DNA from: Onthophagus taurus
Taxonomy: Eukaryota; Arthropoda; Insecta; Coleoptera; Scarabaeidae
Direction: 5' to 3'
Assembly (NCBI RefSeq): GCF_036711975.1
Contig: NC_091972.1
Span: 1,555,001 to 1,619,000 of the forward strand
DNA: 64,000 nt
Below are positions 12,308 through 63,532 of this stretch, piece after piece; positions within the stretch are counted from its first letter, which is position 1, and every line of letters begins with the position of its first letter. The position numbers were made by a program, and so were the translations under genes. Below the pieces are notes generated by a model. It did no database searches and was not told the origin of the DNA. It was given only the letters and a program-made list of their open reading frames with translations.

Positions 12308-13645
12308 TTAAAATGCTACTTTGCGTGCTTTCTCTTGTGCAAATAATGAAATTAATTCACAGAGGTCCAGATTGTAAGCCAGTTCTTGCTCTATTGATAT
12401 TGTCGCTAATCCAACTAATCTTTCTTCAGTCATCGTTGAGCGCAAGTACGTTTTAATTAATTTCAATCTAGAAAAACTGCGCTCTCCACTTGCTACAGAA
12501 ACAGGGAGAGTTAATAAAATCCTTAACGCGACGTAAATATTAGGAACGCTATTCTGGAGATCATGCCTTAAAATGAAAAGAATAACTTCAGATGGGCCCA
12601 TTACTTTTGGAAGTCTTCGAGACACACTTTGAAGTTCCCAGCATAAGTCTTCTCCATCAATGTCTTTACAGGAATTATGCGTTAAGGCACTTTCAAACTT
12701 TTTGCATTGCATAAGAATATCTTCGTTTTTATCCTTTAAGTTAAAAATATCGTAAAGAAACCCAAATAAAGCACAATACTCTTGCATTTGATTAAATCTT
12801 TCCTGTATTGCATTTACTGCATTATCTATAATCATATTATAGAATGATATTTTATAGTTTTGTTTGGGATCTTGTATTGATACACCTTCGGCTTCATAAT
12901 CAAACTGTTTTTTAATTTTCCTTCACCTACTAGGTGCATTAGGAAAATTTGCATCAATATCGAGTTCGTTTGCCAGAAGTGATAAATTCTTTTCGAAGTT
13001 TTCATCTGATCGACAACTTACAAGATAATTCTTTGTAACTTCCAGCTGTTTCGTACATATAAATATGTCTGCATTCTTATTTTGCAGTAATTTGCTTGTA
13101 ATGTTGATTTCGAAAAGAATATTGTACCACGTAATAAGTGACACTAGAAATTTAAATGTACTTATACCATCTGCAATTCCTTTTGCTTCCACGCGCATGA
13201 TGTTTCCACTGTAACCTGCTGGGTTTGGGTCATTATAAATATCCATAAGAGCGTCATATATTTTCGAAATTTGAAATCGCAGCGGCTTCAACGCATCGAT
13301 ACGGCTTTCCCAACGTGTATCACTCAGGGGTTTGATAGTTAAATTTGCTGCATGTTTTTGAAGAATGTGCCAACGTTTTGTAGAACCAGCGAAAAAAGTA
13401 TAAATTTTTTGTACAATGTTAAAAAAACTTGTAGCCTCTAGGGAACAGCTCACAGCATCATTCACCACTAAATTCAAGGAATGGGCATTGCATGGAACAA
13501 AAGAATGCGCGTGGGTTTTTTTCAATGATTTTTGAAGAAAAACAAGGAGAGATCTTTTTAATTTGGCACTTTCTTTCTCTTTTTCCGCTTTCCGTTTTCG
13601 GTTTTGCGACCCAGAAGGTCGCTTAGGCTTACTAGCATCAGCCAT
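12308..13645 (-). pseudogene. hAT transposase, internally deleted, one in-frame stop
   Basis: The N-terminus MADASKPKRPSGSQNRKRK is the usual basic start of the ZMYM1/TTF-zinc-finger hAT group. It is fused after about 37 residues to the RNase-H part (FVPCNAHSLNLVVNDAV, then LSDTRWESRIDALKPL), so the zinc finger and first catalytic block are deleted. One TGA at 12923-12925 interrupts the frame; the same frame then continues without shift to the hATC domain (LLTLPVSVASGERSFSRLKL) and stops at 12308. Arginine CGA mutated to TGA would explain the stop. Non-functional here. Confidence 0.88.
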
Positions 13646-13914
13646 GACAGTTCTATTGAAAGAATACTTTGATTATTCTTGAAAAGCGAACATCACCTAT
13701 TGTAAGTGGTATTCATAGAACGCTTTTGGAGGAAGACATCGATAGGTTTTTAACAGAACGCAGAACACCGTAAACGACATTGAGAAAAATTTACAAGAAT
13801 CGATTTTTTAACTGCTTTATCTTACAGCATGTTTTTTTTTGTGGGCAAGAGGTTTAATGAGTTTTCATTGAAATAAGACAGTTATTAAAAAACAATTTTT
13901 GTGAAATTTTCTCA

Positions 13915-14904
13915 CAAGGGAAGTGTCACAACTGTGTCTCACCGATTTCGATGCAATTTGGTACAGTCATAGAATGGGCCAAAATAAGGTTCGCACATTT
14001 TTTTATACGTGCGGTAAAAGCCCCTGGGGCGAGTTATAGGGGTTGAAAGTTTGGAGAAAAAGTACGTTTTCACTTATATTTTGAAAACGAAAAGTGCTAT
14101 CAAAATTTGGTAAATTGTAACTGATATTTATTTTAAAAGAGCTTTCTTTTGATGTGTCACACATATAGCAGAGGGTTAAAAAGGGCGAACTACCCCTATT
14201 TTTTTGGAATTATTTAAAAACCACCCTATCGATTTTGGCGGCATTAAGTATACTTCTAGTGCGTTCAAAAATATTAGTTAAGGGTTTTTTCCCATTCGCC
14301 CTAGATCAACCCCAGCGAAGTTACGGGGGTTAACATGTAAGCACTTTTCGTAAGAATGATGTGATAAAATTGTCAGGTATTTTGAAAATACTTTAAACAA
14401 AACCGTAAATTAGTCGCACAATAAAATGTTTAGTGTAAAATAAGGCATAATACACCATATAGGGGTTGTTGGGGTTATCCACCCCCTTAAAAATTAATTC
14501 TATCCCGGGCGTTATTTGTCGATTACGGCGAAATTTGGTACTGTGTTTGTTTTATATTTGAAGTAAAAATTTTTGAAAATGGTTATAAGGGTTACAAATT
14601 AGGGGTAGTTTTTTGTTTATACCTCGAAGATGAAAACTGCCATCGTAACTGTGGTATTGTTTTTTAAAAATCTATCTATCGATGTTCCACGAGGTAAACT
14701 ACCCTCATTTTCTTTAAATAATAAATATAAAACTACTAGATAAATAAGATATTTTATTTATTTATGAGTTAAAAAGCAACTGACAAAAAAAATAGTTCAA
14801 TATACCAAAGAAGTTTATTCTACATTACTAATTGACGTTTTTTATGTATTATATTAATTTTCAATATTAAATTTATTTTTATTCTACATAATGTTGCCAA
14901 AAAT
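13915..14904. repeat. Left terminal inverted repeat of the Tc4/Tc5-like element
   Basis: Pairs with 16611-17600 without apparent gaps. Match breaks at 14905, after TTGCCAAAAAT. Confidence 0.9.
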
Positions 14905-15046
14905 ACACCTACCAAAAAAATTTTGGCACAATATTTGTTTTTTTAGTGCCGCTTGCTAAAGGTCATTTCTCAAAATAGTTTTTTCTAGTATAAAAGAACG
15001 TGTGCCCAGTGGGTAGATTTTAGTTTCAGAGCAACTGACAGAAGCA

Positions 15047-16636
15047 ATGGTTACAATAAACCCAATAAACGTTTTAAATTTGCTAATGACAGTTTTTACT
15101 GTTATGAATATTCCCCAGACTCCTGTAAATGAAGCAGAAGTTAGTTTAAAAGAAAATATACAGCGTATTTTAATGGAAAGTATGGAAGACTACAATATGC
15201 AAATTGAAGACGAAACTGTATTAATTTTCGATTCATCCAATGGCATCAATGACGGTCAGCAAATTATTGAAGACCAGGATACAACTGACAGGTTTGTAGA
15301 AGATACTGATGCTCATTGTCCATTGAAGGATGACATCGACTACGAGTACAAATTAGAGGCGGTAAATTACTGGACAAGTGGGAAGAAAGGTTATTTGAAA
15401 CTAGAAACCGTAAAAAACAAATACCGAAAAGTAACGTCAAAGACCCAATTGCACAGATGGTCTAAATATATTGAAGAAAGAGGGACATACAAAGAAAAAT
15501 TAGCAGAAATTACCGAATTTGTAATTAATCAAGCGAGAGCCGCCGTAGATAATAAATTGCCACTACATGATATTGATATACGCAGATGGGCTATACAAGC
15601 TAGAAATGAAAAGAATTTATCTCCTCAACTGTTCAAAGCATCTCATAGCTGGGTGCAACGTTTTAAGAAAGCAAATCGGTTAGTAAGCCGAAAAATAACA
15701 AAATTTCTATCCCAAAAACAAATTGGAAATGTTGATCGAGTAAAAACTTTAGCAAAAGATTTCGTTAAAGAGGCAAAGCTACAAATCCAAATATATGGAC
15801 CTGAAAACACCTACAATTCGGATCAGAGCGGTTTTAACTTGGAATTCCATTCGGGAAGAACATTAAGCGATTTAGGAGTTAAAACCGTAGAAAGTGTGGT
15901 CCAGTCGGTGTCATCTACAACGCACAGTTACACAATTCAACCCGTAATATCTGCTGATGGGAAACTTCTTTCTCCACTTTTTATTGTTTTAAAAGAACCC
16001 TCTGGCAGCTTTGGACCGAGGGTAGCAAATACAATGTTTAAAGCAGACAATATATACGTTTTGGCATCAAAATCTGGAAAGTTAACTTCAGAACACATGA
16101 AAAATTGGCTCCAAAATGTATATTTTCCAAATACTGGTTCTAAATCATTATTATTATTAGATTCTTGGAGTGGCCATTGTCCTGAAGTTATTAGTGAAAT
16201 AACTCCATCAGGTACTAATTTTAAACATTTATCTATACCTGCAGGGACAACAGGTCAAATACAGCCCCTAGATGTATTTGGTTTCAGAATATGGAAAAAT
16301 TTTATTAGAAGATTCTCTGATCAGATTATTCTTTACCAGTATGATGTCAATTTACATCAGAGGGATAACATATTAAAATTGCAATCGTTGACGCATAACC
16401 AGTTGGCTTCCCCTCGGTTTATAAATGTTTTTAAATACGCATGGTTTGCAAGTGGCTATATAGAGGAGAGACCAGACCATTTTGAAAATCCCGTGGAAGT
16501 TTGCTTTTCGAGTGAGAAGCCAACGTGTGATATCTGTGGGGATATAGCGGTCATAACATGTGCATGGTGTAAAAAATCCTTATGTTTAAAACATTTTTTC
16601 CACGACTTTCATTTTTGCCAACACTACGTAGAATAA
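15047..16636 (+). CDS. DDE transposase of the Tc4/Tc5-like element, 529 aa
   Basis: Uninterrupted from ATG 15047. Residues 1-95 are acidic with no recognised fold. About 97-220 look like paired CENP-B/pogo helix-turn-helix DNA-binding regions (YKLEAVNYWTSGKKGYLKLE, SHSWVQRFKKANRL). The DDE domain follows with likely catalytic aspartates D259 (YNSDQSGF), D372 (LLLLDSWSGH) and D409 (GQIQPLDVFG). The last 35 residues form a Cys/His cluster (CDICGDIAVITCAWC, CLKHFFHDFHFC) that could bind two zinc ions. The stop codon and last eight or so codons lie inside the right inverted repeat. Likely functional; I infer this from the open frame and the near-identical arms. Confidence 0.9.
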   Translation: MVTINPINVLNLLMTVFTVMNIPQTPVNEAEVSLKENIQRILMESMEDYNMQIEDETVLIFDSSNGINDGQQIIEDQDTTDRFVEDTDAHCPLKDDIDYEYKLEAVNYWTSGKKGYLKLETVKNKYRKVTSKTQLHRWSKYIEERGTYKEKLAEITEFVINQARAAVDNKLPLHDIDIRRWAIQARNEKNLSPQLFKASHSWVQRFKKANRLVSRKITKFLSQKQIGNVDRVKTLAKDFVKEAKLQIQIYGPENTYNSDQSGFNLEFHSGRTLSDLGVKTVESVVQSVSSTTHSYTIQPVISADGKLLSPLFIVLKEPSGSFGPRVANTMFKADNIYVLASKSGKLTSEHMKNWLQNVYFPNTGSKSLLLLDSWSGHCPEVISEITPSGTNFKHLSIPAGTTGQIQPLDVFGFRIWKNFIRRFSDQIILYQYDVNLHQRDNILKLQSLTHNQLASPRFINVFKYAWFASGYIEERPDHFENPVEVCFSSEKPTCDICGDIAVITCAWCKKSLCLKHFFHDFHFCQHYVE

Positions 16637-17600
16637 AAATAAATTTAATATTGAAAATTAATATAATACATAAAAAACGTCAATTAGTAATGTAGAATAA
16701 ACTTCTTTGGTATATTGAACTATTTTTTTTGTCAGTTACTTTTTAACTCATAAATAAATAAAATATCTTATTTATCTAGTAGTTTTATATTTATTATTTA
16801 AAGAAAATGAGGGTAGTTTACCTCGTGGAACATCGATAGATAGATTTTTAAAAAACAATACCACAGTTACGATGGCAGTTTTCATCTTCGAGGTATAAAC
16901 AAAAAACTACCCCTAATTTGTAACCCTTATAACCATTTTCAAAAATTTTTACTTCAAATATAAAACAAACACAGTACCAAATTTCGCCGTAATCGACAAA
17001 TAACGCCCGGGATAGAATTAATTTTTAAGGGGGTGGATAACCCCAACAACCCCTATATGGTGTATTATGCCTTATTTTACACTAAACATTTTATTGTGCG
17101 ACTAATTTACGGTTTTGTTTAAAGTATTTTCAAAATACCTGACAATTTTATCACATCATTCTTACGAAAAGTGCTTACATGTTAACCCCCGTAACTTCGC
17201 TGGGGTTGATCTAGGGCGAATGGGAAAAAACCCTTAACTAATATTTTTGAACGCACTAGAAGTATACTTAATGCCGCCAAAATCGATAGGGTGGTTTTTA
17301 AATAATTCCAAAAAAATAGGGGTAGTTCGCCCTTTTTAACCCTCTGCTATATGTGTGACACATCAAAAGAAAGCTCTTTTAAAATGAATATCAGTTACAA
17401 TTTACCAAATTTTGATAGCACTTTTCGTTTTCAAAATATAAGTGAAAACGTACTTTTTCTCCAAACTTTCAACCCCTATAACTCGCCCCAGGGGCTTTTA
17501 CCGCACGTATAAAAAAATGTGCGAACCTTATTTTGGCCCATTCTATGACTGTACCAAATTGCATCGAAATCGGTGAGACACAGTTGTGACACTTCCCTTG
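16611..17600. repeat. Right terminal inverted repeat of the Tc4/Tc5-like element
   Basis: Inverse copy of 13915-14904; its inner edge overlaps the 3' end of the transposase gene. Confidence 0.9.
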
Positions 17601-18194: not shown

Positions 18195-18602
18195 AGATCA
18201 CTATGTTGCATATTTTTATTGCACTAAAACTAGAACTAACGCTAGACCTAGAACTAGAAAGTATCGGGTTTAGCCGTGCGTCTTCAGACACACGGCTAAA
18301 CCCGAATATTTCTAGTTTTAGGTCTAGTGTTAGTTCTAGTTTTATACTATCACTAGAACTAACACAAGATCTGGAACTAGAATCATTCGGGTTTAGCCGT
18401 CTTGAGAGACGTGCGGCTAAATCCAAATGTTTCTAGTTCTCGGTCTAGTGTTAATTCTAGAATTGCACTATCACTAGAACTAACACAAGACCTAGAACTA
18501 GAATCATTCGGGTTTAGCCGTCTTGACAGACGTGCGGCTAAACCCGACTGTATCTAATTCTAGGTCTGGTGTTAATTCCAGTTTTACACTAGCACTATCT
18601 AA
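18195..18602. repeat. CTAG-family repeat block with strong hairpins
   Basis: Three palindromic units, each with arms of CTAGAACTAACACTAGACC type and a centre such as GGTTTAGCCGTGCGTC followed by its inverse ACGGCTAAACCCG. Open frames on both strands are repeat by-products. Confidence 0.75.
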
Positions 18603-18603
18603 A

Positions 18604-19014
18604 GCGTGTCCCGTATCTTCCGCATCAGAGCATTATACGGTTGTAGGATACATTATTCAGAAGCGATTTTTCTAATAAATTTTTTTCGAAATGTTTATAA
18701 TAACCGCACGGGAACTGTTTTTCGGCGTCCATTGGCAAATCGTAAATCAGATTCAGGTAATTGGCCCAACCGTCGGCCGGACCGCCGATCAAAACACGTT
18801 TCCCACATGTACTTACCAATAGATTCGACACGCAAAGAGAAATACACTTTTTTCGTGAATCAAAATCGTCTGTTTTTGGATAAAAGCGGAGAATTTTAAA
18901 CAGTTCCCGTGCGGTTATTATAAACATTTCAAAAAAATTTCATTAGAAAAATCGCTTCAGAATAATGCATCCTTCAACCGTTAATGCTCTGATGCGGAAG
19001 ATACGGGACACCTG
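18604..19014. mobile_element. MITE with about 115-bp inverted repeats
   Basis: The left arm (18604-18718: GTGTCCCGTATCTTCCGCAT and onward) is repeated inverted at 18900-19014 with a few indels. The right end GGGACACCTG followed by TA resembles the CAGGGTGTCC ends of the larger Tc1/mariner-related elements here. The centre (18719-18899) is unique and non-coding. The left terminal bases have decayed. Confidence 0.7.
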
Positions 19015-19024
19015 TATATCTAAG

Positions 19025-19118
19025 AGAACGCAATTGATAATACTTGTCTGAATACTCAAATTTTTATTTTGGCCAGCATCCCAGAAACGTCTAATGACCG
19101 GTCTTGCTGAGACACCTG
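19025..19118. mobile_element. Terminal fragment of a long-TIR Tc1/mariner-related element
   Basis: This piece reads AGAGAACGCAATTGATAATAC, then GGCCAG, CCCAGAAACGTCTAATGACC and GAGACACCTG before TA. It matches the right ends of the elements at 30833-32616 and 35153-36618. Only the last 90 bases or so are present. Confidence 0.65.
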
Positions 19119-19334
19119 TATATTTATCTAAAAAAAAAAGACTAACATAAAGTAAAAAATAAATTAGGTGCAGATTTTTGGAGATGGCCAAAGATGAATC
19201 CAGAGGGATACCGAACAAAAGATATTAAATTAAATAACTTAGAGTTACTTTGTATATTTATTAATAAAATTCCTATTCTTCAATGTAATATAAAAATAAT
19301 AAAATAATTTATGTTTTAAAAAAACACCTTTGAT

Positions 19335-20568
19335 TTATTCAGACTGTTCCTTATAAAGTGAAATGTGTTGGAATTTTATGGCTTCTAATCCATAACTAGT
19401 TGTATTTGGAAGTAGGTATCTTGCAAAAATTTCTAAACACTTTGGATTTTTTGGAAGAAATTTTTGTAAAACATCTAAAAAATGAAAAATAAAATTATAT
19501 AATTACAATATAAATTATTGTTTTACCATTTAAAGGTGGTTTATGTGAATGAAGTGCACTTGGAACACTAACAACAACTTTTCCATCCATTATTGACGAA
19601 AATTTAGTGACATCTCTAGCAGCAAATAAAATTTGTTCGAATGGTTGTTTACCGGGTGGTTCAGAAAAATTGCAAATTGTTTCACCTTTCTTAGTAATCT
19701 ACAATTCTTGTTATCAACACTAACTTAATTATAAAATTGTATTTAATACCTTTAACCAAAACCAAGTTGCAAAATATTCCACACCCCATTTTTTGAAAAT
19801 ATCATTTTTAAGACTATTTATATTTGATTTAGCATTAGTACACCAAACCACAATTAAACTTCCATCATGAATTAACGATTCAATAGGAATATCCAATAAA
19901 TTGTTGTTGTACAGCATGTTATAACCATCATTAGACTTTTTTCTTTTACGTCTAATGTATTTATTCCACCAGGGTGGATCAATTATTACTAAATCAAATA
20001 TATTATCAAAACCTAATTTATCACCTATCACATTTACATTAGAACAATAAAATTTACAATCCTTTGGAAATAAGAACTCGGTATTTTTTAATGTCACATT
20101 TATAGCCACATCTTTTTGATTCTCTCCTTTTATTCCCTCTATATCACATTCCGATGATTCTCTATAAATCATATCAGATAATTTTAAGGCAGTTTCGTTT
20201 CCTTTAGCGTCATAATCATTTAGGTTTACCAAAAGAGCACTCCTTTCAATTAATTCTTTCTTGACCATCTCATATATTGATTTAATTCTTCCTATCTAAA
20301 TCAAAAAAAATTAATAATTAATATAATCTCAGAAAATACTTACCGAACAAGTAAGTTCTTGAAATTTTTCTTTGGTATCTTCTTTAGTGTCATCACCTTT
20401 CTTCTTTACAATTTTCTTATTAACATAGGGATGGGAGATGTTAAAAAGATCCTCGTTCGCTTGATACGAAACAACATTACCGTCTTTTTCTACGGATTCA
20501 TAAATCGTTTTAATATATTTTTCGTGTGAAATAAAAATAGCATTATCATTTTCATATAAAACACTCAT
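19335..20568 (-). CDS. METTL4: METTL4 homolog (MT-A70-family methyltransferase)
   Basis: Four exons on the minus strand (20344-20568, 19750-20295, 19527-19698, 19335-19474) encode 360 aa with consistent phases. The catalytic DPPW motif is at about residues 181-184 (FDLVIIDPPWWNKYI), in an MT-A70 domain that continues through LIVVWCTNAKSN, FATWFWLK, VVVSVPSALHSHKPPL and the C-terminal CLEIFARYLLP block. METTL4 is known as an N6-adenine methyltransferase acting on U2 snRNA cap-proximal m6Am, with debated DNA 6mA activity. No signal peptide. It is shorter than the human protein at the N-terminus, as often in insects. It shares a short upstream region with PIGK. Confidence 0.93.
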
Positions 20569-20744
20569 ACTTAATCATAATCAAAAAGAAAAGTCTAAAA
20601 AAAGTAAGGTTATGTGATGTATAAGTGAGGTTATGTTTCACTACGGAGTAATGCGACATCTATTAGTATTAATTAGAATTAACAAAAATTGATGTTTATT
20701 AATCTAACCTCAAAAATAACATTCAAAAAGTTATTTGTAAAGAA
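20569..20744. promoter_or_regulatory. Bidirectional METTL4/PIGK promoter interval, 176 bp
   Basis: The two start codons face away from each other and are 176 bp apart, so both promoters and both 5' UTRs must lie here unless an upstream non-coding exon exists. Two copies of a GGTTATGT motif (about 20607 and 20629) are visible. No TATA box is obvious. Shared regulation is inferred. Confidence 0.6.
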
Positions 20745-21913
20745 ATGATTTGCTTTTTTAAATTAATAACATCGTTTTTAATCATTTCTAACGTCTTAGC
20801 TGATAATGTAATGATTTTAATTATTTGATTCCAAATAATAAATAATTAATTTTTTAGGCTTTGGAGCAATTTGCTGCTAATAGTAAGGGGCACACAAATA
20901 ATTGGGCCGTTTTAGTAGACACTTCAAGATTTTGGTTTAATTATCGTCATGTTGCAAATGTTCTTTCAATTTATCGTAGTGTTAAAAGACTTGGAATTCC
21001 AGATAGTCAAATTATCCTTATGATTGCTGATGATATGGCTTGTAATCCGAGGAATCCTCGCCCAGCTACAGTTTTTAATAACGCGAAGCAACATATTAAC
21101 GTGTACGGAGATGATGTGGAGGTAGATTATCGAGGATATGAAGTTACTGTTGAGAATTTTATACGAGTATTAACAGGGCGTTTACCTCCTGAAACTCCGC
21201 GATCAAAGCAGCTACTTACTGATGAAGGGAGTAATATTTTGATTTATTTAACTGGGCATGGGGGTGATGGATTTTTAAAATTCCAAGATTCTGAGGAAAT
21301 AACCAGTCAAGAAATGGCTGATGCCTTAGAACAAATGTGGCAAAAACAACGATATAATGAAATATTTTTTATGATTGATACATGTCAAGCTGCCTCAATG
21401 TATGAAAAGTTTTATTCACCTAATATTTTAGCTGTTGGTAGCAGTTTAGTTGGTGAAGATTCGTTATCTGTAAATTTGAAAGGATTTTAAATATTATTTT
21501 ATTTATATTTATTTTTTTTAGCATCATGTTGATGCATCAATTGGAGTGTATATTATAGATCGTTATACTTATTATGCTCTTGAATTCTTGGAACAATGTG
21601 GAGCTGGAAGTAAAAGAACCATGGCTGAATTTGTATGTTTGTTATTTTTTTTTAACTATTTTAATATTTCGTTTAATTTTAGCTGAGGGTTTGTCCAAAA
21701 TCCCAATGTATTTCAACAGTTGGTATAAGAACTGATTTATTTAAACGAAGATTAACTGAAGTACCAATAACGGACTTTTTTGGGTCAGTTCGACCTGTTG
21801 AATTAACAGTATTAAATAACCACACCATTCCAATAATTAAAAACGTAAATAAACCCAAAGATAGCGTTTTAAAGAAAAATAAGTACAGTTTTGTACCTGC
21901 TTTATCATATTAG
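20745..21913 (+). CDS. PIGK: PIGK/GPI8, catalytic subunit of the GPI-anchor transamidase
   Basis: Four exons (20745-20807, 20858-21469, 21522-21632, 21683-21913) encode 338 aa. Exon 1 is almost exactly a signal peptide ([19 protein letters not shown]). The caspase-like C13 peptidase domain follows: [18 protein letters not shown], the catalytic His in LTGHGGDGF and the catalytic Cys in [11 protein letters not shown]. The conserved [13 protein letters not shown] and [19 protein letters not shown] blocks close it. It cleaves the GPI-attachment signal and joins the anchor in the ER lumen. I see no hydrophobic C-terminal membrane segment, unlike human PIGK. AATAAA is at 21948. Its last exon has two decayed tandem copies downstream. 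Confidence 0.95.
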
Positions 21914-22457
21914 TTTTTATTAGCATTTTGAAATAGTCAAATTTTTCAATAAAAAGAAATTAACAAGCTGAGTAGAATTTATTTCAAACACAACACTGAG
22001 TAACAATCATTATAAAAAAAGATATACAAAAATACAACCATTGAATAAGTCATATTATCAATTTTTTACTATAACATTAGGCACAGTAATAAAAAAATAA
22101 TTGCTGTCTCTAAAATTCTTTTTGTTATTAGTAGTTTTACAATAAAAGAAATTGTGTAAGCACATTAGAGTACTAAAGATCAAGAATAATATTGCAAAAG
22201 CATCCAAAAATTCTCTTTTTATTCGAAAATGCCTGCATCACTACTTTATTATGAGTATGAGTATCTGTAGGCTTAATATTCAATGTTAATCTTCAGACTA
22301 GAAAATATTACTCACACAATATTTAAACAACTCACATAATAAAAATATTAGAAAGTGTAATTGATAAAAATAAAGCTAATTTATAAAAATTTGTGTAAAA
22401 GAAATAAATAAAAAAAAATTAAAATTCAAATGCTTCTTGTCATCTCTTCACCCTGAC

Positions 22458-23630
22458 TTAATGCCCATCCTAAAAAAACATAAATTAATTAAAATCTTTA
22501 CATCATTACTCAACTTACCTTTCTTGGTTGTGGTTGCAAAACTTGTCCAGCAAATGATGTTAATAAAGATCCAACACTTCCCAATCCTCCAACAGATCCT
22601 TGTCCTCCAATATTACTTGGATTTAATGGTTGTTGTGGTTGCGCCTGAGTTTGTCCTTGAGTAAATGAAGATAACAATCCACCCAAAACTCCTAAAGTAT
22701 CTGGTTGTTGTTGTTGCTGAGGTTGTTGATATTGTTGTTGAGGGGGTGGTTGTTGCTGCTGCTGTTGAGTTTGAGGAGATGTAGTCAAAGTGGAAAGCAA
22801 GGAACCTAAGCTGCCAAGCACATCAGGCTGGTTTTGGGAAGGTTGTTGCAGTGGTTGTTGTTGCTGATATTGTTGATTTGGCTGATTTTGTTGTAATGGA
22901 GCTCGAGGGGGAGTTGTTAAAGTATTTAGTAACGTACCCAAACTTCCCATTATATCAGGGCCAGCTTGAGTTGGTTGTTGGGTTTGATTTTGATGAGATG
23001 AAGGGATATTAGGTTGCTGCTGGTAATTTTAAGGTTGTTGTTGCGATTGCTGTTGAGGCTGGTTAATAAATTAGTATTATTTGATTTTTACAATTTTCAT
23101 GAAAAACATTATAGAAACTTACATTGTTTCCTCCACTTGTTAATGATGATAACAGTTTTTCTGCCATCCCACTTGCTATTGCTCCTTGAATTACAGTTTG
23201 AGCTGAACCCAAGAAAGAATCTAAACTTGATTCACCTTTTTGATTCCAAAATTAGAAATATTTGCATTTCATAAAAAGATGTTATATTAAATAACATAAT
23301 AAAAACAACACTACAAGCAATTCTTAACAGCAAATTACAAACATTGTTTAGCATTGTTGACCAAAAATAAATAAAGTCTAAACTTTATCAACAAATTTTT
23401 AACAAATTTAATCCACATGTCCACGTGAAGGAGGTTGCTCCATAAGGTCCTGAGCCAAACTGATTTGGAGGAGGACCATATTGATTTGGTGGAGGACCAT
23501 ATTGATTTGATGGAGGACCATCTTGACTTGGAGGTGACCCATGAGGTTCATATCCCGGAGGTCCAAAATTTGCAGGACCTTGTGATGGAATATTACTTTG
23601 AGGAGCCATTGGTGTATCTTGTTGGGTTGG
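22458..23630 (-). pseudogene. Galectin tail copy 1 (no lectin domain)
   Basis: Exon equivalents on the minus strand are part of exon 4 (about 23400-23630), exon 5 (23123-23245), exon 6 (22519-23058) and exon 7 (22458-22469). Damage compared with the 26289-28136 gene: a small deletion shifts the frame at the Pro-rich end of exon 4, the exon-5 acceptor AG is changed to GG, and exon 6 has a TAA stop at 23029-23031. The 146-aa open stretch 22510-22950 still encodes the Gln/Pro-rich sequence. No promoter or start exon is attached. Confidence 0.88.
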
Positions 23631-23647
23631 GATTCATTTAATTTTAG

Positions 23648-23873
23648 CTGAGGGTTTGTCCAAAATCACAATGTATTTCAACAGTTTGTATAAGATTTAT
23701 TTAAACGAAGATTAACTGAAGTACCAATAACGGACTTTTTTGGGTCAGTTCGACCTGTTGAATTAACAGTATTAAATAACCACACCATTCCAATAATTAA
23801 AAACATAAATAAACCTAAAGATAGCGTTTTAAAGAAAAATAAGTACAGTTTTGTACCTGCTTTATCATATTAG
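23648..23873 (+). pseudogene. PIGK exon-4 copy 2
   Basis: Copy of PIGK 21683-21913 with an intact acceptor (TTTTAG before CTGAGGGTTT) but small deletions soon after (GTTGGTATAAG changed to GTTTGTATAAG, with loss of the following ACTG). The frame is therefore lost before the conserved FKRRLTEVP block. The stop and 3' UTR copy remain. Confidence 0.88.
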
Positions 23874-24407
23874 TTTTTTATTAGCATTTTGAAATAGTCA
23901 AATTTTTCAATAAAAAGAAATTAACAAGCTGAGTAGAATTTATTTCAAACACAACACTGAGTAACAATCATTATAAAAAAAGATATACAAAAATACAACC
24001 ATTGAATAAGTCATATTATCAATTTTTTACTATAACATTAGGCACAGTAATAAAAAAATAATTGCTGTCTCTAAAAATTTTTTTTGTTAGTATTACAATA
24101 TAAGAAATTGTGTAAGCACATTAGAGTACTAAAGATCAAGAATAATTTTGCAAAAGCATCCAAAAATTCCCTTTTTATTCGAAAATGCCTGCATCACTAC
24201 TTTATTATGAGTATCTGTAGGCTTAATATTCAATGTTAATCTTCAGACTAGAAAATATTACTCACACAATATTTAAACAACTCACATAATAAAAATATTA
24301 GAAAGTGTAAATGATAAAAATAAAGCTAATTTATAAAAATTGGTGTAAACGAAATAAATAAAAAAAAATTAAAATTCAAATGCTTCTTGTCATCTCTTCA
24401 CCCTGAC

Positions 24408-25590
24408 TTAATGCCCATCCTAAAAGCAAACATAACTTAATTAAAATCTTCACATCATTACTCAACTTACCTTTCTTGGTTGTGGTTGCAAAACTTGTCC
24501 AGCAAATGATGTTAACAAAGATCCAACACTACCCAATCCTCCAACAGATCCTTGTCCCCCAATATTACTTGGATTTAATGGTTGTTGTGGTTGCGCCTGA
24601 GTTTGTCCTTGAGTAAATGAAGATAACAATCCACCTAAAACTCCTAAAGTATCTGGTTGTTGTTGTTGCTAAGGTTGTTGATATTGTTGTTGTGGGGATG
24701 GATGTTGCTGCTGCTGTTGAGTTTGAGGAGATGTAGTCAAAGTGGAAAGCAAGGAACCTAAGCTGCCAAGCACATCAGGCTGGTTTTGGGAAGATTGTTG
24801 CAGTGGTTGTTGTTGCTGATATTGTTGGTTTGGCTGATTTTGTTGTAAAGGAGCTCGAGGGGGGGTTGTTAAAGTATTTAGTAATGTACCCAAACTTCCC
24901 ATTATATCAGGGCCAGCTTGAGTTGGTTGTTGGGTTTGGTTTTGATGAGATGAAGGGATATTAGGTTGTTGTTGGGGTTGCTGCTGGTAATTTTGGGGTT
25001 GTTGTTGCGATTGCTGTTGAGGCTGGTTAATAAATTAGTATTATTTGATTTTTACAATTTTCATGAAATACATTATAGAAACTTACATTGTTTCCTCCAC
25101 TTGTTAATGATGATAACAGTTTTTCTGCACTCCCACTTGCTATTGCTCCTTGAATTACAGTTTGAGCTGAACCCAAGAAAGAATCTAAACCTGATTCGCC
25201 TTTTTGATTCTAAAATTAGAAATATTTGCATTTCATAAAAAGATGTATTAAATAACATAATAAAAACAAAAGTACAAGCAATTCTTAACAGCAAATTACA
25301 AACATTGTTTAGCATTGCTGACCAAAAATAAATAAAGTCTAAACTTTATCAACAAATTTTTAACAAATTTAATCCACATGTCCAGGTGAAGGAGGTGTTG
25401 TAAGGTCCTGAGCCAAACTGATTTGGAGGAGGACCATATTGATTTGGTGGAGGACCATATTGATATGGAGGTGACCCATATTGTCCTTGAGGAGATCCAT
25501 GAGGTTCATATCCCGGAGGTCCAAAATTTGCAGGACCTTGTGATGAAATATTACTTTGAGGAGCCATTGGTGTATCTTGTTGGGTTGGTA
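24408..25590 (-). pseudogene. Galectin tail copy 2 (no lectin domain)
   Basis: Equivalents of exon 4 part (about 25365-25590), exon 5 (25087-25209, acceptor intact), exon 6 (24471-25022) and exon 7 (24408-24419). A TAG at 24669-24671 replaces CAG in the polyglutamine run of exon 6, and exon 4 has a frame shift near the Pro-rich end. The defects differ from copy 1, so the two copies decayed separately at least in part. Confidence 0.88.
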
Positions 25591-25605
25591 TTCATTTAAT
25601 TTTAG

Positions 25606-25755
25606 CTGAGGGTTTGTTCAAAATTCCATTGTATTTCAACAGTTGGTATAAGATTAAATAACCACACCATTCCAATAATTAAAAACATAAATAAACCTAA
25701 AGATGGCGTTTTAAAGAAAAATAAGTACGGTTTTGTACCTGCTTTGTCATATTAG
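25606..25755 (+). pseudogene. PIGK exon-4 copy 3, deleted
   Basis: The acceptor and first codons are kept, then about 80 bp are missing (GGTATAAGA joins directly to TTAAATAACC), which removes the [19 protein letters not shown] codons. The end of the exon and 3' UTR are present. Confidence 0.88.
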
Positions 25756-26288
25756 TTTTTATTAGCATTTTGAAATAGTCAAATTTTTCAATAAAAAGAA
25801 ATTAACAAGCTGAGTAGAATTTATTTCAAACACAACACTGAGTAACAATCATTATAAAAAAAGATATACAAAAATACAACCATTGAATAAGTCATATTAT
25901 CAATTTTTTACTATAACATTAGGCACAGTAATAAAAAAAATAATTGCTCTCTAAAATTTTTTTTGTTAGTAGTTTTACAATAAAAGAAATTGTGTAAGCA
26001 CATTAGAGTACTAAAGATCAAGAATAATTTTGCAAAAGCATCCAAAAATTCTCTTTTTATTCGAAAATGCCTGCATCACTACTTTATTATGAGTATGAGT
26101 ATCTGTAGGCTTAATATTCAATGTTCATCTTCAGACTAGAAAATATTACTCACACAACATTTAAACAACTTACATAATAAAAGTATTAGAAAGTGTAATT
26201 GATAAAAATAAAGCTAATTTATAAAAATTTGTGTAAAAGAAATAAATAAAAAAAATTAAAATGCTTCTTGTCATCTCTTCACCCTGAC

Positions 26289-28136
26289 TTAATGCCCATC
26301 CTAAAAACAAACATAAATTAATTAAAATCTTCACATCATTACTCAACTTACCTTTCTTGGTTGTGGTTGCAAAACTTGTCCAGCAAATGATGTTAACAAA
26401 GATCCAACACTTCCCAATCCTCCAACAGATCCTTGTCCTCCAATATTACTTGGATTTAATGGTTGTTGCGGTTGCGCCTGAGTTTGTCCTTGAGTAAATG
26501 AAGATAGCAATCCACCCAAAACTCCTAAAGTATCTGGTTGTTGTTGTTGCTGCTGAGGTTGTTGATACTGTTGTTGTGGGGGAGGTTGTTGCTGCTGCTG
26601 TTGAGTTTGAGGAGATGTAGTCAAAGTGGAAAGCAAGGAACCTAAGCTGCCAAGCACATCAGGCTGGTTTTGGGAAGGTTGTTGCGGTGGTTGTTGTTGC
26701 TGATATTGTTGATTTGGCTGATTTTGTTGTAATGGAGCTCGAGGGGGAGTTGTTAAAGTACTTAGTAATGTACCCAAACTTCCCATTATATCAGGGCCAG
26801 CTTGAGTTGGTTGTTGGGTTTGGTTTTGATGAGATGAAGGGATATTAGGTTGTTGTTGGGGTTGCTGCTGGTAATTTTGGGGTTGTTGTTGCGATTGCTG
26901 TTGAGGCTGGTTAATAAATTCGTATTATTTGATTTTTACATTTTTCATGAAAAACATTATAAAAACTTACATTGTTTCCTCCACTTGTTAATGATGATAA
27001 CAGTTTTTCTGCCATCCCACTTGCTATTGCTCCTTGAATTACAGTTTGAGCTGAACCCAAGAAAGAATCTAAACCTGATTCACCTTTTTGATCCTAAAAT
27101 TAGAAATATTTGCATTTCATAAAAAGATGTTGTATTAAATAACAAAATAAAAACAAGCAAACATTGTTTAGCATTGCTGATCAAAAATAAACAAAGTCTA
27201 AACTTTATCAACACATTTTTAACACATTTAACCTACATGTCCAGGTGGAGGAGGTGGTGCTCCATAAGGTCCTGGGCCAAATTGATTTGGAGGAGGACCA
27301 TATTGATTTGGAGGAGGACCATATTGATTTGGTGGAGGACCATATTGATTTGGAGGTGGCCCATATTGTCCTAGAGGAGGTCCTTGAGGTTCATATCCTG
27401 GAGGTCCAAAATTTGCAGGACCTTGTGGTGGAATATTACTTTGAGGAGCCATTGGTATATCTTGTTGGGTTGGAGCTTGAACTTTTGCATGTTGAGGTAC
27501 TTCTTCAAAAGAAATTAAAGATACAGAAACCTGTCCTTCAATTGATAGATGAGAAATATTTTTTATAGGGATTCTGTAAGGAAATTCGCAAAAATGTCTT
27601 CCATTAATTGCAATCTGAAAAAAAAATCATGATTAGTCATTTCATGGGAAGGTCACAATAATTATTAGAGCTGAAATAAGATTTCTTTTTTTAGTGATTA
27701 CATACTTTATATTCGGAGTTATCAGCAAATATAACAATTTCGAAATTTTCCCCAGGTTGGATGGGCAAGTCTCCTTTGTCTTGTTCCGCGCCCCAAATAC
27801 CACCTTCATAAGAATTTCTAGCTACATATCCTTCTAATAGCCTTACAGATAAATGTAGGCCAATGTCATCTTTATTTTCATTTGTAACCAAATTAAAATC
27901 AATCCTTTGGAAATGAAGCATTAATCAAAAAATTGATAAACCTTTTTGTATAAGGATGTTTCTCACCTTTCAGCTTGGGGTGCAGCACTTCCTTGTACTC
28001 TTATCAATTTACCACTAGAAAACCCATTTCCAATTGACCCTAAATAAGGTATGGGCTGTAATAAAAGAACGTTTTAATTAACATTCTTAATTACTTGCAA
28101 TAATATCAAACTTACAGGATTTGTTATAGGGTCCAT
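26289..28136 (-). CDS. Galectin with Pro-rich and Gln/Pro-rich tail; two splice forms likely
   Basis: Exons on the minus strand: 28116-28136, 27967-28055, 27706-27904, 27228-27614. Read straight, exon 4 ends at a TAA (27228-27230), giving 231 aa. Within it, GGACAT followed by GTAGGT is a usable donor; splicing there joins in frame to 26971-27093, 26352-26906 and 26289-26300, giving a much longer protein ending RKDGH. One lectin domain: HLSVR, YVARNS, IWGAEQ and INGRHFCEF carry most sugar-contact positions, with Ser where Asn is usual in HxNxR. The tail has [13 protein letters not shown] repeats, then Gln-rich blocks with [13 protein letters not shown]. Galectins lack signal peptides and bind beta-galactosides; I see none here. 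Confidence 0.9.
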
Positions 28137-29041
28137 AGCTTAGTTGTAGTCTCGATAAAGATTAGCACAAGTGAACTTAGGATTACTGCAAAGGAGGAGG
28201 AGCCTTCATTCTGACTGTGCAGGAACGTATTAACATTTAAAATTTTAAAAATAAGTATTATTTCGATAATTATTTTTGTCCTCTATAAGTCCTCTAATGG
28301 TTTTTTTTTCTTAATCAGCGAATCAATAAAAATAAGACGTAGCTCTTTGCTAAAGACATTATTTTATCATTATTAATTGGAATTAGTTTAGTGAAGACCG
28401 TGTTGAGAATTTTCTTTGAAATTTAGAGTTGAAAATATTAATTTAACAGTTAAATTTATCTCTTTATAGATTACATATTATAAGAGTTATTGAAAGTGTT
28501 CCCCTCCTTAGTCCAATCCTGTGGTGAATCCCCACTTTTCTTTGAATTGCGTCGGCATTAGCCAAACACTATTTATAACACACTAAAAAAATCTATTTTT
28601 CTTGTAAAAACGAAATTGATTCTCTTAAAAAATTATCATTAATTATAATTCACGATAACAATAAAACTATCCATCAAAATCAATTTATTTTTTTTTTAAT
28701 ACATCATTTAATACATTTATAATAAAATTTTTAACAAATAGTTTTTAGCATAATTTTATTTATTTATTTAACGTGAAATGTTTGTTAATAATAAATTGCG
28801 TAATAAAATACAACAATTTTTTTAAATCATTACTTTATGCTTACACGATTTGCGGATAGATGGCGCATTCGTGTCGGATTTAGGATTAGAAGAAGGCTTT
28901 TGACCTTCATTGAGGTTACCTTCTCAGAAAAAAACCGCCCGGTTTAACACCCGATAAATACACAAAACAGTTACAATTCACTTGTGAGTGACCGCGCCTC
29001 ATTTTTCTAGATAACAACAACGTAAAGTCCGGAAGACGATT
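28137..29041. promoter_or_regulatory. Divergent galectin promoter interval
   Basis: 905 bp between two start codons pointing away from each other. AT-rich, except a patch at 28860-29040 next to the plus-strand galectin. No open frame. Shared regulation of the pair is plausible but inferred. Confidence 0.5.
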
Positions 29042-30295
29042 ATGGCTCAACCGCTCGTAAATCCGGTAAGTTTCAAATCTTAAAATTTCCGCAAGAATGT
29101 TTCTTATTTAATAATTGCTTATTTCCAGGGGGTCCCATTAACGGCGCCTTTCGATGGGCCCCTTTTTCCGGGGAAAATGGTCCGTATTCGAGGATATACC
29201 CCCCCAAATGGAGAACGGTTAGAATCATATTTGCCATATAATAGAAAATTTGATAATCAATAATAAAAGAATTATTATGTTTTTATAGATTTGATATTAA
29301 TTTTCAAACAAAACCCACTGCTTACGATACTGATGATATAGCTTATCATATTTCATTTCGCATGATGCAAGGATATGTTGCTAGGAATTCTTTTCAAAAT
29401 GGGGATTGGCAGATGGAAGAAGGTGATGGAGATTTACCTATACAGAATGGGGTCCCATTTGAGTTGTTGATTTTAATTGAAGATATGCAATTTAAGGTAT
29501 ATAACTAATTAGATGTTAATTATATACAAATGGCTAAGGTATTATGAATCATGTGACTATGAGTAACATAATAACAATAGTCTAGAAAAGTGTAACCAAA
29601 TCCTTTTTTAAACCTATGTACATAGTGGATCAAAAGTATGTTATCTCACAAAATATGTGGAAGGGATAATTATTGAATTTTAAATAAAAATAGATAATAA
29701 CAAGATATTTTAATTTTTAGCTTGCAATTAATGGAAGACACTATTGCGATTTTCGCCACAGAATACCATTCCAAGCAATCACCCATTTAGGTATTGAAGG
29801 GGATATAACATTGTCATTGGTTGCATTTGAAGGTAATCCCCCAGCGTATGGTTCCCAACCAAATTACAATGGACAACCCGAAATGTACGCACCTGGTCAA
29901 CCATATGGACAACCCGGAATGCCATCAGCTCCACCACCTTATTCCCCTGTAAGTGAAACAATCTTAATTATATTTTCACCTCTCTCTCTTCCTCAGTATC
30001 ATCGCTTTCTTATTTATTACTTTTTTATAAAATTAGCATGCAAAATTACATTCAACTCATTTCAAATCAGCTTACAAGATTAATAATTGTTTTATTTTGA
30101 ATTTTTTTCTGTTTTCCCTGGTATTCCCACGAAAATACAATTATTGTAAGTGTTCCATTTCTGTTTAAACCGGTACTCATTATTAAATTGTTGTTACTTT
30201 GTGTTTAGGCAGTAAATATGCCCCAGATGTACGCGCCACCCCCAATGGGAATGCCCCCGCCCTACGGATCAGGATATTCCCATCCACCGATGTAG
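29042..30295 (+). CDS. Galectin with Tyr/Pro-rich tail, paralog of the neighbouring one
   Basis: Five exons (29042-29065, 29129-29217, 29289-29496, 29721-29948, 30209-30295) encode 211 aa. Start MAQPLVNP and exons 2-4 match the minus-strand galectin in length and in intron phase, so the pair arose by inverted duplication. The lectin domain has AYHISFRMMQGYVARNS, DWQMEEGDGDLP and INGRHYCDFRHRIPF. The sugar-site WG is WQ here and Asn of HxNxR is Ser. The tail is short, rich in Tyr/Pro/Gly/Met (GQPYGQPGMPSAPPPYSP), likely disordered. Polyadenylation signal AATAAA at 30564. No signal peptide, so cytosolic or non-classically secreted. Confidence 0.93.
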
Positions 30296-30563
30296 CCAAC
30301 CAAGGTGAATTCGTGTCCTGATGGTAGTTGTCAAGGATAACCGTCATGTGTCTTCAATTTCACGCTTTCCCACTACTTCGTTTTGTTGTTAGAACAATAA
30401 TATTCCTATTAATATACCACATAGAATATAAAACAAAGTATTGCAATGATAAAAAAATTAGTACAGTCAATATATTCTATTCCTGGCAATTTGTAAAATG
30501 TTACTGTTAGATCTGCCTTCTATGTTTTATATAATATATATGTTGTATTGAGGGGTACTGTTT

Positions 30564-30569
30564 AATAAA
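30564..30569 (+). terminator. Polyadenylation signal of the plus-strand galectin
   Basis: AATAAA 269 bp after the stop codon, the first canonical signal downstream. Confidence 0.6.
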
Positions 30570-30832
30570 ATAATTAAAACTATAACCAGTTTCGTTTTGT
30601 GCAATTAAAAAGCTAGGTTAGAATATAATCTGACTTTTAAGGAATGCTATTTATTAACTTTTAAAAATCTTTATGAAGGTTAAAAATTCTTCTTTGATGC
30701 ATTAGCCTTACATCAATACTCTCCCATGGAATAGATAGACCATATTCAGTAAAGTCATTAAAGATGTACAAAGAAATGTAGAGATTAATTTTGTTTGAAG
30801 TACAAAAATTTAACAACAATCTTTGGCCTATA

Positions 30833-32616
30833 CAGGGTCATCCACGACGACCGTCCATTAGAACTCTACAGGGTTCTGGCCAAAATACAAATTTGAAAAT
30901 TCAGATTTAAGTATTATCAATTGCGTTCTCTTTGGCTAAAATATTTTCAAATATCTAACACTTCCGGTTATACCGGAAATCGCCACCTACTTTATTTTTT
31001 TAAATGGAATACCCTGTATTTTTACATATTTGGATTTGTCTGTTTTCAAGGTTTATGAATGACTTTACTTTTTGCAATTTGATTCGGTCGTTCTTGAGTT
31101 ATTCGAATTTTTCTAGAAAAATCTGCTCCAGCAGATATTTATTCAAAAAATCAGAAAACACTCGATTTTTGGGGTATCAATTTAGGATTCAGAACATGCT
31201 TAAGTAACATGATGGAGTATGTTTTGGTGCCGAGTATGGTTGTCTAGAACGTTTGGTCACTTTACTATGGCACGTTACCTTTTCGAAACTTGGAAGTACC
31301 ATAACTTCATTTCTTTAAATGGCACCCCCCATATTTTATTACTTAGTAGTCTTCGCTGTCTCATTTTACATCTTTTATATCCCATGTGTCCTATACTTAA
31401 CATTTATAGTTTGGGAAATAATTAGGGTTTATTGAAAAGTGCACAGTTAAACCGGAAGAGGTGACAATTTTCATATTTTAAATGGAACACCCTGAGTTTT
31501 ATAACATTTTTCAATCAAAAATGTCAACTACAACGTTACTTTTTATAATTTATAAATCATCTACTTTGACCGCCGGAAAAAAAATTTTGTGTTGGGAATG
31601 TTGTTGTGGTTATGTATTATCAGAGGATCAGTAAGGAAAGAGTAAACAGTTTGACATTTGCTAAAGCTATGGTTTACTTCTGTTGGTGTGATGACTAGGT
31701 TACTTTTTGTAGTGATCTGTTCTCAAGAAATGCCACGTTTGGAATTTAGTAATGAGGATTATTTGAATTTGATAATGATTTATGGAGAGTGCAATATACA
31801 GGGGCCTAAAATTGAACAAAAATATAATGAAATACAGGATGTTCCATTTGAAATATGAAAATTGTCCCGGAACCTGAAAATATTCTAGTAAAAAGCTGGC
31901 ATCAAGCACAGAAGTCTGCAAATTTTCAAAAGGCCAGTTCATATGGTTATACACTAGGTCACACTAGGTATTCATGGCACACTAGGTTAAATATCGATAT
32001 ATGTGTGCATTTTTCAAAAAACCCTAATTATCTCCTAAACTATAAATGTTAGGTATAGGACATATGGGATATAAAAGATGTAAAATGAGACACCGAAGAC
32101 GACTAAGCAATAAAATATGGAGGGTGCCATTTAAAAAAATGAAGTTATGGTATTTCCAAATTTCGAAAAGTTAACGTGCCGTAGTAAAGTGACCAAACGA
32201 TCCAGACAGCCGTACTCGGCACCAAAACATACTCCATTATGTTGCTTACGCATTCTGAATCCTAAATTGATATCCCAAAAATCGAGTGTTCTCTGATTTT
32301 TTTAACAAATGTCTGCTGGGGCAGATTTTTCTAGAAAAATTGGAATAACTCGAGAACGGCCAAATCAAATTGCAAAAAGTAAAGTTATCCATAAACCTTG
32401 AAAACAGACAAATCCAAATATGTAAAAATATATAGGGTGTTCCATTTAAAAAAATAAAGTAGGTGGGGACTTCCGGTATAACCAGAAGTGCTAAAAATCT
32501 GAAAATATTTTAGTCGAAGAGAACGCAATTAATAATACTTAAACCTGAATTTTCAAATTTTTGTATTGGCCAGAAACCTGTAAAGTTCTAATGGACGGTC
32601 GTCGTGGATGACCCTG
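30833..32616. mobile_element. Foldback Tc1/mariner-related element with about 610-bp inverted repeats
   Basis: The left arm (30833 to about 31440) starts CAGGGTCATCCACGACGACC and is mirrored by about 32010-32616; TA flanks both ends. About 180 bp in from the left end is AAATGGAATACCCTGTAT, an inverted echo of the terminus. The centre has a fragment starting at 31730, MPRLEFSNEDYLNLIMIYGE, which matches the N-terminal helix-turn-helix (DUF4817 type) of this insect transposase group. The rest of the transposase is gone. Confidence 0.85.
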
Positions 32617-59100: not shown

Positions 59101-62100
59101 ACAAAAATTAATTAATTTATGCTTAAATCATACGAAAAAAAGGAATTTGTTTACGTTTTTTTAATATCAAACCTTTAGAAAGTCCTAAGGAATGAAATTA
59201 AATTGGCGTTTTTTGAAATTTTGACGTTTCAAATAATTGTTATTATAAAAAGTTTTAATTGTTATTCAGCGCTAAGTTGTATATTTTTAAGTTTCGGGTT
59301 TAGCTCTGTGTCTTCAGACGCTGAATGTTAGGTAAGGTTAGTTTTGTTTACAAACATTAATTATACCATGAAGTATTCTTTGGAAATTAGTAATGGCAAT
59401 TATAGCGTGAAGTTTTCTTTTGTAATGTCAATTATAGCGTGAAGGAATGTTCGGTAAGGTTAGTTTTGTTTACAAACATTAATTATACCTTGAAGTTTTC
59501 TTTGGCAATTTGTAATGGCAATTATAGCGTGAAGTTTTCTTTTGTAATGTCAATTATAGCGTGAAGGAATGTGAGCTAAGGTTAGTTTTGTTTACAAACA
59601 TTAATTATACCATGAAGTATTCTTTGGAAATTAGTAATGGCAATTATAGCGTGAAGTTTTCTTTTGTAATGTCAATTATAGCGTGAAGGAATGTGAGGTA
59701 AGGTTAGTTTTGTTTACAAACATTAATTATACCATGAAGTTTTCTTTGGCAATTAGTAATGGCAATTATAGCGTGAAGTTTTCTTTTGTAATGTCAATTA
59801 TAGCGTGAAGGAATGTGAGGTAAGGTTAGTTTTGTTTACAAACATTAATTATACCATGAAGTTTTCTTTGGCAATTAGTAATGGCAATTATAACGTGAAG
59901 TTTTCGTTTGTAATGTCAATTATAGCGTGAAGGAATGTTAGGTAAGGTTAGTTTTGTTTACAAACATTAATTATACCATGAAGTATTCTTTGGCAATTAG
60001 TAATGGCAATTATAGCGTGAAGTTTTCTTTTGTAATGTCAATTATAGCGTGAAGGAATGTTAGGTAAGGTTAGTTTTGTTTACAAACATGAATTATACCT
60101 TGAAGTTTTCTTTGGCAATTATACTTTTTTTTTTTAAACCAGGAGGAGTATTTTAAATTTGTCACCAGATTGACCTTACACGTGAATGGTTGAATGCGAG
60201 GAAGGTTCACACACAGGCAATTTTGAATTTGAAGGTTAGGTTATTGACAATTCGACAGTTTCGTGTCATTATTGTAAATTTTGTGTTCTTAAACCCTTCT
60301 TTATTATATTTTGAAATAAATACACTCATAACTTCAATGTTAATTTATATGTTTAGTGTTGACGATAACAAACGAAAATAAATACAATAATAAGTAAATA
60401 AATAAATAATAATAATTATTAATTTAAATTTACCGCCAAAATATCTAGTGATATTTTCTGGTGATTTTTCCTAGTGTAAATCTGACTTTCGCGTTTACTC
60501 CTCCTGGTTTAAAAACAGAGTATAGTCTGTCCTGTGAATAATGATTATTCGCCGATATTATTCACTCCGTGAAAAATGACTAACCTTTTGTTTTAGAAAA
60601 CTCATTTATAAGCTATATATTATAAGGTATATTATTATATGAGCATATAATGAGGGCTATTATTCACTAAGGTTAAGTTTAATAAGCATAATTAACCTGA
60701 TTTATATGTGAGTAGAATACTATACTTTGTCCACGACTATTGAAATTGATTCTATAAATTTATTTTTAAATACATTTTTGAACAAAGTTTAAACGTCAAT
60801 GTGACACAAATTCAATGTTACCAACTGTAACCAACTTCACAACAATTTGTCAAAATTAAGTGTCAATTTTATAAAACGTCGTTTTTTTTACGAAAATTAA
60901 TTAATTTATGCTAAATCATACGTAAAAGGAATTTATCTAATTCCGTTATGAAAATTAAATTTTACATGTCTATCTGACGTTTTGTAACGTCACTTTTTTT
61001 TATAACTAGTGATGTAATGATTTCAACCTAACTACAAATTGATAAATTGACATCTGTCACTAATAGAATAAGTCAAGTTTTGAACAAAAATTGCTTTGTC
61101 AATGGAATTAAGATAAAATTTTGTACTTAACACGTTATGAAACGGCTAATTTTGTATAACTCACGTAATTTGAGTAATTTAACAAAATTTTTGAATGAAC
61201 TTTAAACGTCAATGTGACACAAATTCAATGTTACTAACTGTAACCAACTTCACAACAATTTGTCAAAATTAAATGTCAATTTTATAAAACGTCGTTTTTT
61301 TACGAAAATTAATTAATTTATGCTTAAATCATACGAAAAAAGGAATTCGTTTAGGTTTTTTTAATGTCAAACGTTTAGAAACTAAAAAATTGAATTAAAT
61401 TGACGTTTTTTGAAATTTTAACGTCTCAAATACTTATTATTAGTCTGTCAAGTTGGTTAACCGTGAATAATGATTATTATTCACCGCTATTATTCACTCC
61501 ATGAAAAATGACTACCCTTTTGTTTTAGAAAACTCGTTCATAAGGTATATATTATAAGGTAGTCGTGGACAAATTAATTTAGTAAGTAATTAGTAATTAA
61601 TTTAGTAATTTAGTAACCATAGTTACGAAACTACTGTGCAGTTGCACTGTCCCACATAAAATGCAACATAGCTTAATAGTACAGGCATTAGGTAGTTTTG
61701 CAAAGGAAAAGTTTTGCTGAGAAAAAGGTGAGTGAAAAAGGTCTTGTGTTAGTTCTAGTTTTAGTGCAATAAAAATATGCCACAAGTGATATCTTATACT
61801 AACTAGTGCTACCTACCACTGTCACTAGCACTAACATTAGACCTAGAACTAGAAACATTCAGATATGTTGCATTTTATGTGGGACAAAAAGTAAATAGGT
61901 ACGCCCTGGTTTCTATGAAAATATATGTTATTTCAACTCGTTTGCTTCTTTATCCCCATTTAAAATCATTTGTATTTGTCACACAGCTACTTCTTTGACG
62001 TTGTTGTGACTACATCATGATGCTTTATTGGAATTAATTTTAGAAATTGATTTAAATTTTTAGATGTTGGAAAACGTGGCGTCAGAAGCAACTCTGCTAT

Positions 62101-63425: not shown

Positions 63426-63532
63426 TAATAATCGTATTTACATAATCAAACAAAATACTTTATCGTTTAGTTTTAAGAAATATTTCTCAAAAGTGAGTAC
63501 TTAATAAGATTTCAAAATTAATTAATAATATA

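Follow-up and report, generated by a model that had tools for sequence, protein, structure and literature searches.

Three tandem copies of the facing 3′ ends of PIGK and a galectin gene in Onthophagus taurus: a probable partial tandem duplication with pseudogene fragments

In the beetle Onthophagus taurus, the gene for PIGK and a galectin gene on the opposite strand converge tail-to-tail, and the terminal exons of both occur three times in a row. Are the additional gene tails put to use, as alternative 3′ ends or as a source of double-stranded RNA, as a first-pass annotation of the sequence had proposed, or are they the debris of a duplication? We addressed this question in a window of 64,000 nt (RefSeq assembly GCF_036711975.1, contig NC_091972.1, positions 1,555,001 to 1,619,000 of the forward strand), the positions of which are used below. 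The triplicated array exists as assembled. We are confident in reading it as an ordinary partial tandem duplication with pseudogene fragments, and the decayed spare copies probably do nothing. It is an ordinary type of genome change and gives no sign of a new mechanism.

Self-comparison of 21401-28300 revealed a direct, head-to-tail array of three units, designated U1, U2 and U3 (Table 1). Each unit contains, on the + strand, about 15 terminal nt of PIGK intron 3 and exon 4, followed by about 0.5 kb of intergenic space and, on the − strand, the convergent galectin tail, i.e., exons 7, 6 and 5 and the last 237 nt of exon 4 (378 nt in full). Successive units start 1.965 and 1.958 kb apart, and U3 is 1.883 kb long. 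With gaps counted, the identity in the self-alignment (1860-2045 aligned columns) was 95.1% for U1-U2, 92.8% for U1-U3 and 92.4% for U2-U3, far beyond chance; by substitutions only, the units differ at 59 of 1936, 63 of 1838 and 71 of 1838 positions, respectively (3.1-3.9% pairwise). A repeat search of 19000-31000 with a minimum length of 40 gave eight direct repeat families with three copies apiece. Their first spacings were 1950-1965 and the second ones 1859-1888, or 1958 for the family preceding the deletion in U3. The copies are thus direct and head-to-tail, have a common breakpoint and capture incomplete genes, all as in a partial tandem duplication.

The breakpoint is the same at both junctions, which differ by one base and each include two odd bases, indicating that both descend from one join and that the third unit expands the first duplication. 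In the sequence of events that we propose, a single illegitimate join would have produced two units, and unequal crossing-over between these, or a second duplication, would have produced three. The spare gene tails, without a promoter and with incomplete splicing signals, would then have decayed. As PIGK would still terminate in U1 and the galectin in U3, both proteins should be unchanged, and the remaining array would form a spacer of about 3.8 kb, probably inert, between the 3′ ends of the two genes.

The state of the copies fits their position. Both PIGK and the galectin have their intact tail where it joins their own 5′ exons, in U1 and U3, respectively. Both attached tails are open and all four spare tails (two per gene) are damaged, the lesions being confined to redundant copies; both genes are left intact because each retains one good tail copy. 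In the PIGK copy of U2 the 5-nt deletion shifts the frame and brings a stop 18 codons into the exon, so that its use would give a product of 280 amino acids (aa). The PIGK copy of U3 stays open and would yield 311 aa, 27 residues short; the lost residues include ITDFFGSVR, which is identical in the solved glycosylphosphatidylinositol (GPI)-anchor transamidase (7w72_K). Both spare galectin tails carry a stop, and their truncated exon 4 is without an acceptor and has the donor GTGGAT in place of GTAGGT. In U1, moreover, GG replaces AG before exon 5.

Most of the structural description in the first-pass annotation is borne out. Its three units of about 1.96 kb agree with the triplication and the spacings, U3 alone being shorter. 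The units do hold galectin exons 7 to 5 as it had stated, but exon 4 is partial and the array ends at 27473, not at 27614. That the parent genes lie tail-to-tail and that the duplication spans both 3′ ends is supported by the unit content, and we confirmed the differing lesions it had listed for the galectin copies (TAA and the exon-5 acceptor change in copy 1, TAG in copy 2). The deletion of 80 bp assigned to the third PIGK exon was found to be one of 81 nt, in frame and leaving the exon open. The frameshift in the second PIGK exon and the exon-4 donor change in both spare galectin copies are lesions beyond those it had reported.

Table 1. Positions of the array and of the two parent genes in the window. 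Each unit runs from the start of its PIGK-derived sequence to the end of its galectin-derived sequence.
Feature	Positions	Strand	Content or state
U1	21668-23630		PIGK exon 4 intact; galectin tail damaged: exon 4 truncated, exon-5 acceptor GG, TAA at 23029-23031
U2	23633-25588		PIGK exon 4 copy (starts at 23648) has lost 5 nt and stops early; galectin exon 4 cut short, TAG at 24669-24671 in exon 6
U3	25591-27473		PIGK exon 4 copy (starts at 25606) has lost 81 nt in frame; galectin tail (exons 7-4) intact
Junction U1/U2	23625-23647		interior of galectin exon 4 fused to about 15 last nt of PIGK intron 3 (alignment)
Junction U2/U3	25583-25605		breakpoint matches that of U1/U2, one base differs (alignment)
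Tract without substitutions in any unit	21905-22116 (U1 coordinates)		209 aligned columns; end of PIGK exon 4 into intergenic space
PIGK exons 1-3	20745-20807, 20858-21469, 21522-21632	+	outside the array
PIGK exon 4, intact copy in U1	21683-21913	+	spliced reading with exons 1-3
Working galectin	26289-28136	−	exons 28116-28136, 27967-28055, 27706-27904, 27237-27614, 26971-27093, 26352-26906, 26289-26300

The spliced PIGK exons 1-4 encode 338 aa, and the product matches Peptidase_C13 (9e-45) and, in the PDB, the GPI-anchor transamidase (3.3e-142, residues 10-305). In the 290.8-Mb genome (33 contigs), PF01650 had a single match, which is this PIGK gene. By eye, a C-terminal membrane helix was not obvious in the 338-aa product; the solved chain has 395 residues and carries such a helix. 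The seven galectin exons form a single open frame with GT-AG introns and match Gal-bind_lectin in Pfam and solved galectins in the PDB. The galectin domain is followed by a P/G/Y/Q-rich and a Q-rich tail. Within 26352-27614 the sugar-binding domain thus comes first and a long low-complexity tail behind it, whereas chimera-type galectin-3 has the two in reverse order. The tail includes 21-bp repeats encoding GPPPNQY, with 4.4 copies in U3 and 3.5 and 3.1 in the spare copies, and the Q-rich exon contains three to four repeats of another motif. A second galectin at about 29.0-30.3 kb (29043-30292, +) lies head-to-head with the first and has a P/Y/G/M-rich tail end.

The array is a fresh instance of a well-known kind. 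In the survey of Drosophila yakuba by Rogers et al. (2017, PMC5460883), genes or gene fragments were captured by 1004 of the 1116 polymorphic tandem duplications, a rate implying that duplication ends inside genes are common. The same survey counts 76 chimeric genes, and its authors tie de novo transcription to copied 5′ parts (PMC5460883). Like the Drosophila partial tandem duplications described in that and a further study (PMC5460883, PMC6380325), the array is a direct copy with ends within genes and with incomplete transcripts captured. Unlike in those cases, both captured ends here are the 3′ ends of genes that converge. With the copying restricted to 3′ parts, neither gene's promoter was duplicated or moved, and a chimeric gene is not expected. 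A further difference from the polymorphism surveyed is that here three copies, 3-4% diverged, are present in one assembly.

Two observations do not follow from plain decay of the copies and weigh against it. One is a tract without substitutions in any unit (p 0.001; 0.003 with the minisatellite left out), which spans 209 aligned columns and reaches from the end of PIGK exon 4 into the intergenic space. It contains three small indels (1, 1 and 2 nt), and the overall spread of changes was not over-dispersed (1.11, p 0.21). Recent gene conversion, 3′-end constraint or luck remain as explanations of this tract. The other is found in the spare copies of galectin exon 6, where synonymous changes are in excess and make up 11 of the 16 private ones (p 0.0002-0.001, depending on which of three mutation models was used; the choice of exon 6 was made only after the table of changes had been viewed). 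The private changes comprise five synonymous, no nonsynonymous and one stop in U1, six, three and one in U2, and four synonymous and two nonsynonymous in the working U3. For exons 4-6 pooled, 13 of 25 were synonymous (p 0.002-0.014). The minisatellite columns of exon 4 were excluded from these constraint counts, and alignment rows 27475-27479, beyond the homologous border, enter no claim. By arithmetic on the counts, synonymous sites in the spare copies of exon 6 seem to have changed more than non-coding DNA has. For this reason we consider it more likely that the alleles had diverged before the duplication, or that the spare copies exchanged sequence with the working one, than that the spare exon has a function. 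A further point against our reading concerns the left/right mosaic that a two-step unequal crossover predicts for U2. Such a mosaic should show in how U1-private and U3-private changes are ordered, but this test was not significant (p 0.43; 0.19 without the minisatellite columns). The mosaic form of the two-step model was therefore set aside, and the crossover is retained solely on account of the shared breakpoint.

Tandemly duplicated exons can serve as mutually exclusive or alternative terminal exons, and here too the repeated exons adjoin their gene of origin. The spare exons could be, or have been, alternative ends, with PIGK exon 3 spliced to copy 3 (311 aa) or galectin exons 4/5 spliced to exons 5-6 of U2 or U1 (ending at TAG or TAA). 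Consistent with such use, PIGK exon 4 of copy 3 is open, and the donors of galectin exons 5 and 6 are identical across all three units. The acceptors of exons 6 and 7 also retain AG in all three units, as does that of exon 5 in U2, and the synonymous excess in exon 6 points the same way. With splice sites preserved in every unit, the copies of galectin exons 6 and 7 may still be spliced. Yet the spare copies differ from such exons: they contain stops, a frameshift and a deletion and have lost splice signals. A cassette of alternative terminal exons should have a complete acceptor region before each copy, and none is found before PIGK copies 2 and 3 or the spare galectin exon 4. Although the copied PIGK acceptors retain TTTAATTTTAG, only about the last 15 nt of intron 3 were copied, and farther upstream lies galectin exon 4 in reverse. 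The branch-site pattern YTNAY occurs 15-45 nt upstream of the acceptor in nine of nine introns of the two genes, but in neither of the two copied PIGK acceptors, which are not independent and in which chance lack of the pattern over a 31-base stretch is probably not rare. This lack weakens the predicted use of the copied acceptors.

The products and the competing sites speak in the same direction. The product of PIGK copy 3 would lack residues, some of which the solved enzyme shares, splicing to U1 over an intron of 50 nt competes, and stops interrupt both spare exon 6 copies. In addition, the synonymous sites seem to have changed more than non-coding DNA and so give no clean signal of constraint. 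We therefore consider alternative terminal exons quite unlikely, and the proposal in the first-pass annotation that intact PIGK acceptors could serve as alternative 3′ ends is not upheld. An extended version is just as doubtful: in it the spare tails act, or once acted, as alternative 3′ ends, exon 6 kept reading sense for part of its history, and the 209-column block ends transcription both ways, the array being a multiplied two-way terminator and isoform cassette.

The annotation had also suggested that the antisense layout could yield double-stranded RNA, in which case read-through transcripts of both genes would pair and give rise to small RNAs against PIGK or the galectin. The genes do face each other and every unit has 3′ parts of both. 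Nevertheless, the repeat search of 19000-31000 found no inverted pair of at least 40 nt, leaving no hairpin of the type expected of a small interfering RNA locus. AATAAA hexamers are present on both strands in all three units: the PIGK one is at 21948, 35 nt past the stop, and those on the − strand lie below the galectin stop, at 26083 and 26056, and recur in U2 and U1. Furthermore, the working stops (21913 and 26289) are 4.4 kb apart vs. about 0.5 kb for the corresponding stops inside U1, so that the array should keep the two transcripts apart instead of making them overlap. The suggestion thus finds no support in the sequence, and of the explanations weighed here we give it the least credence. 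Scarcely more probable is an assembly artefact with haplotype copies strung together. Uncollapsed haplotypes can differ by 3-4%, a range that includes the divergence of the copies. Against this, one border of each unit lies in an intron and the other in an exon, with identical breakpoints, the lesions respect which copy each gene needs, there is no N in the window sequence, and the array sits in a contig of 40.8 Mb.

Outside the array, a 2001-base array query had only five matches of 53-88 bases in the same genome, in a search that passes over very common words and so is not proof of absence. Three of them, on contig C8 (3388369-3388571), were considered as a second array locus and rejected, as by eye they represent a look-alike repeat in a coding-like stretch of another gene; the two others are weak (53-67 bases). 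Among the papers listed in literature searches there was no report of the array, which is not proof that it is unpublished. The locus is a clear case of a partial tandem duplication that spans the 3′ ends of two convergent genes, of little importance as it stands. For annotation it calls for caution, as spurious additional PIGK or galectin exons or genes could be called here.

The window also contains other repeated elements. A Tc5-like DNA transposon at 13915-17600 has an open transposase frame of 539 aa, inverted ends of about 994 nt that are 99% alike, and a TCA target duplication. For its 1691-bp core, all 40 scored genomic matches (of 432 first-look candidates) were 100% identical. TNAG followed the right end in eight of eight copies examined, and matching TNA duplications were found in all five of these that had the left end within the retrieved stretch. 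These data suggest a very recent burst of the element. The left arm varies more, with 96.7-97.5% identity to the window copy and two length forms. A hAT-type transposase stretch at 12308-13672 (−), with a hAT dimerisation region, is divided over two neighbouring stop-to-stop frames. Related CTAGTTCTAG-rich repeats with the core GGGTTTAGCCG lie at 18222-18597 and 63096-63426, and those at 18.2-18.6 kb also make inverted repeats. Finally, a tandem array at 59323-60121 consists of 6.5 copies of a 122-bp unit with 96% matches.

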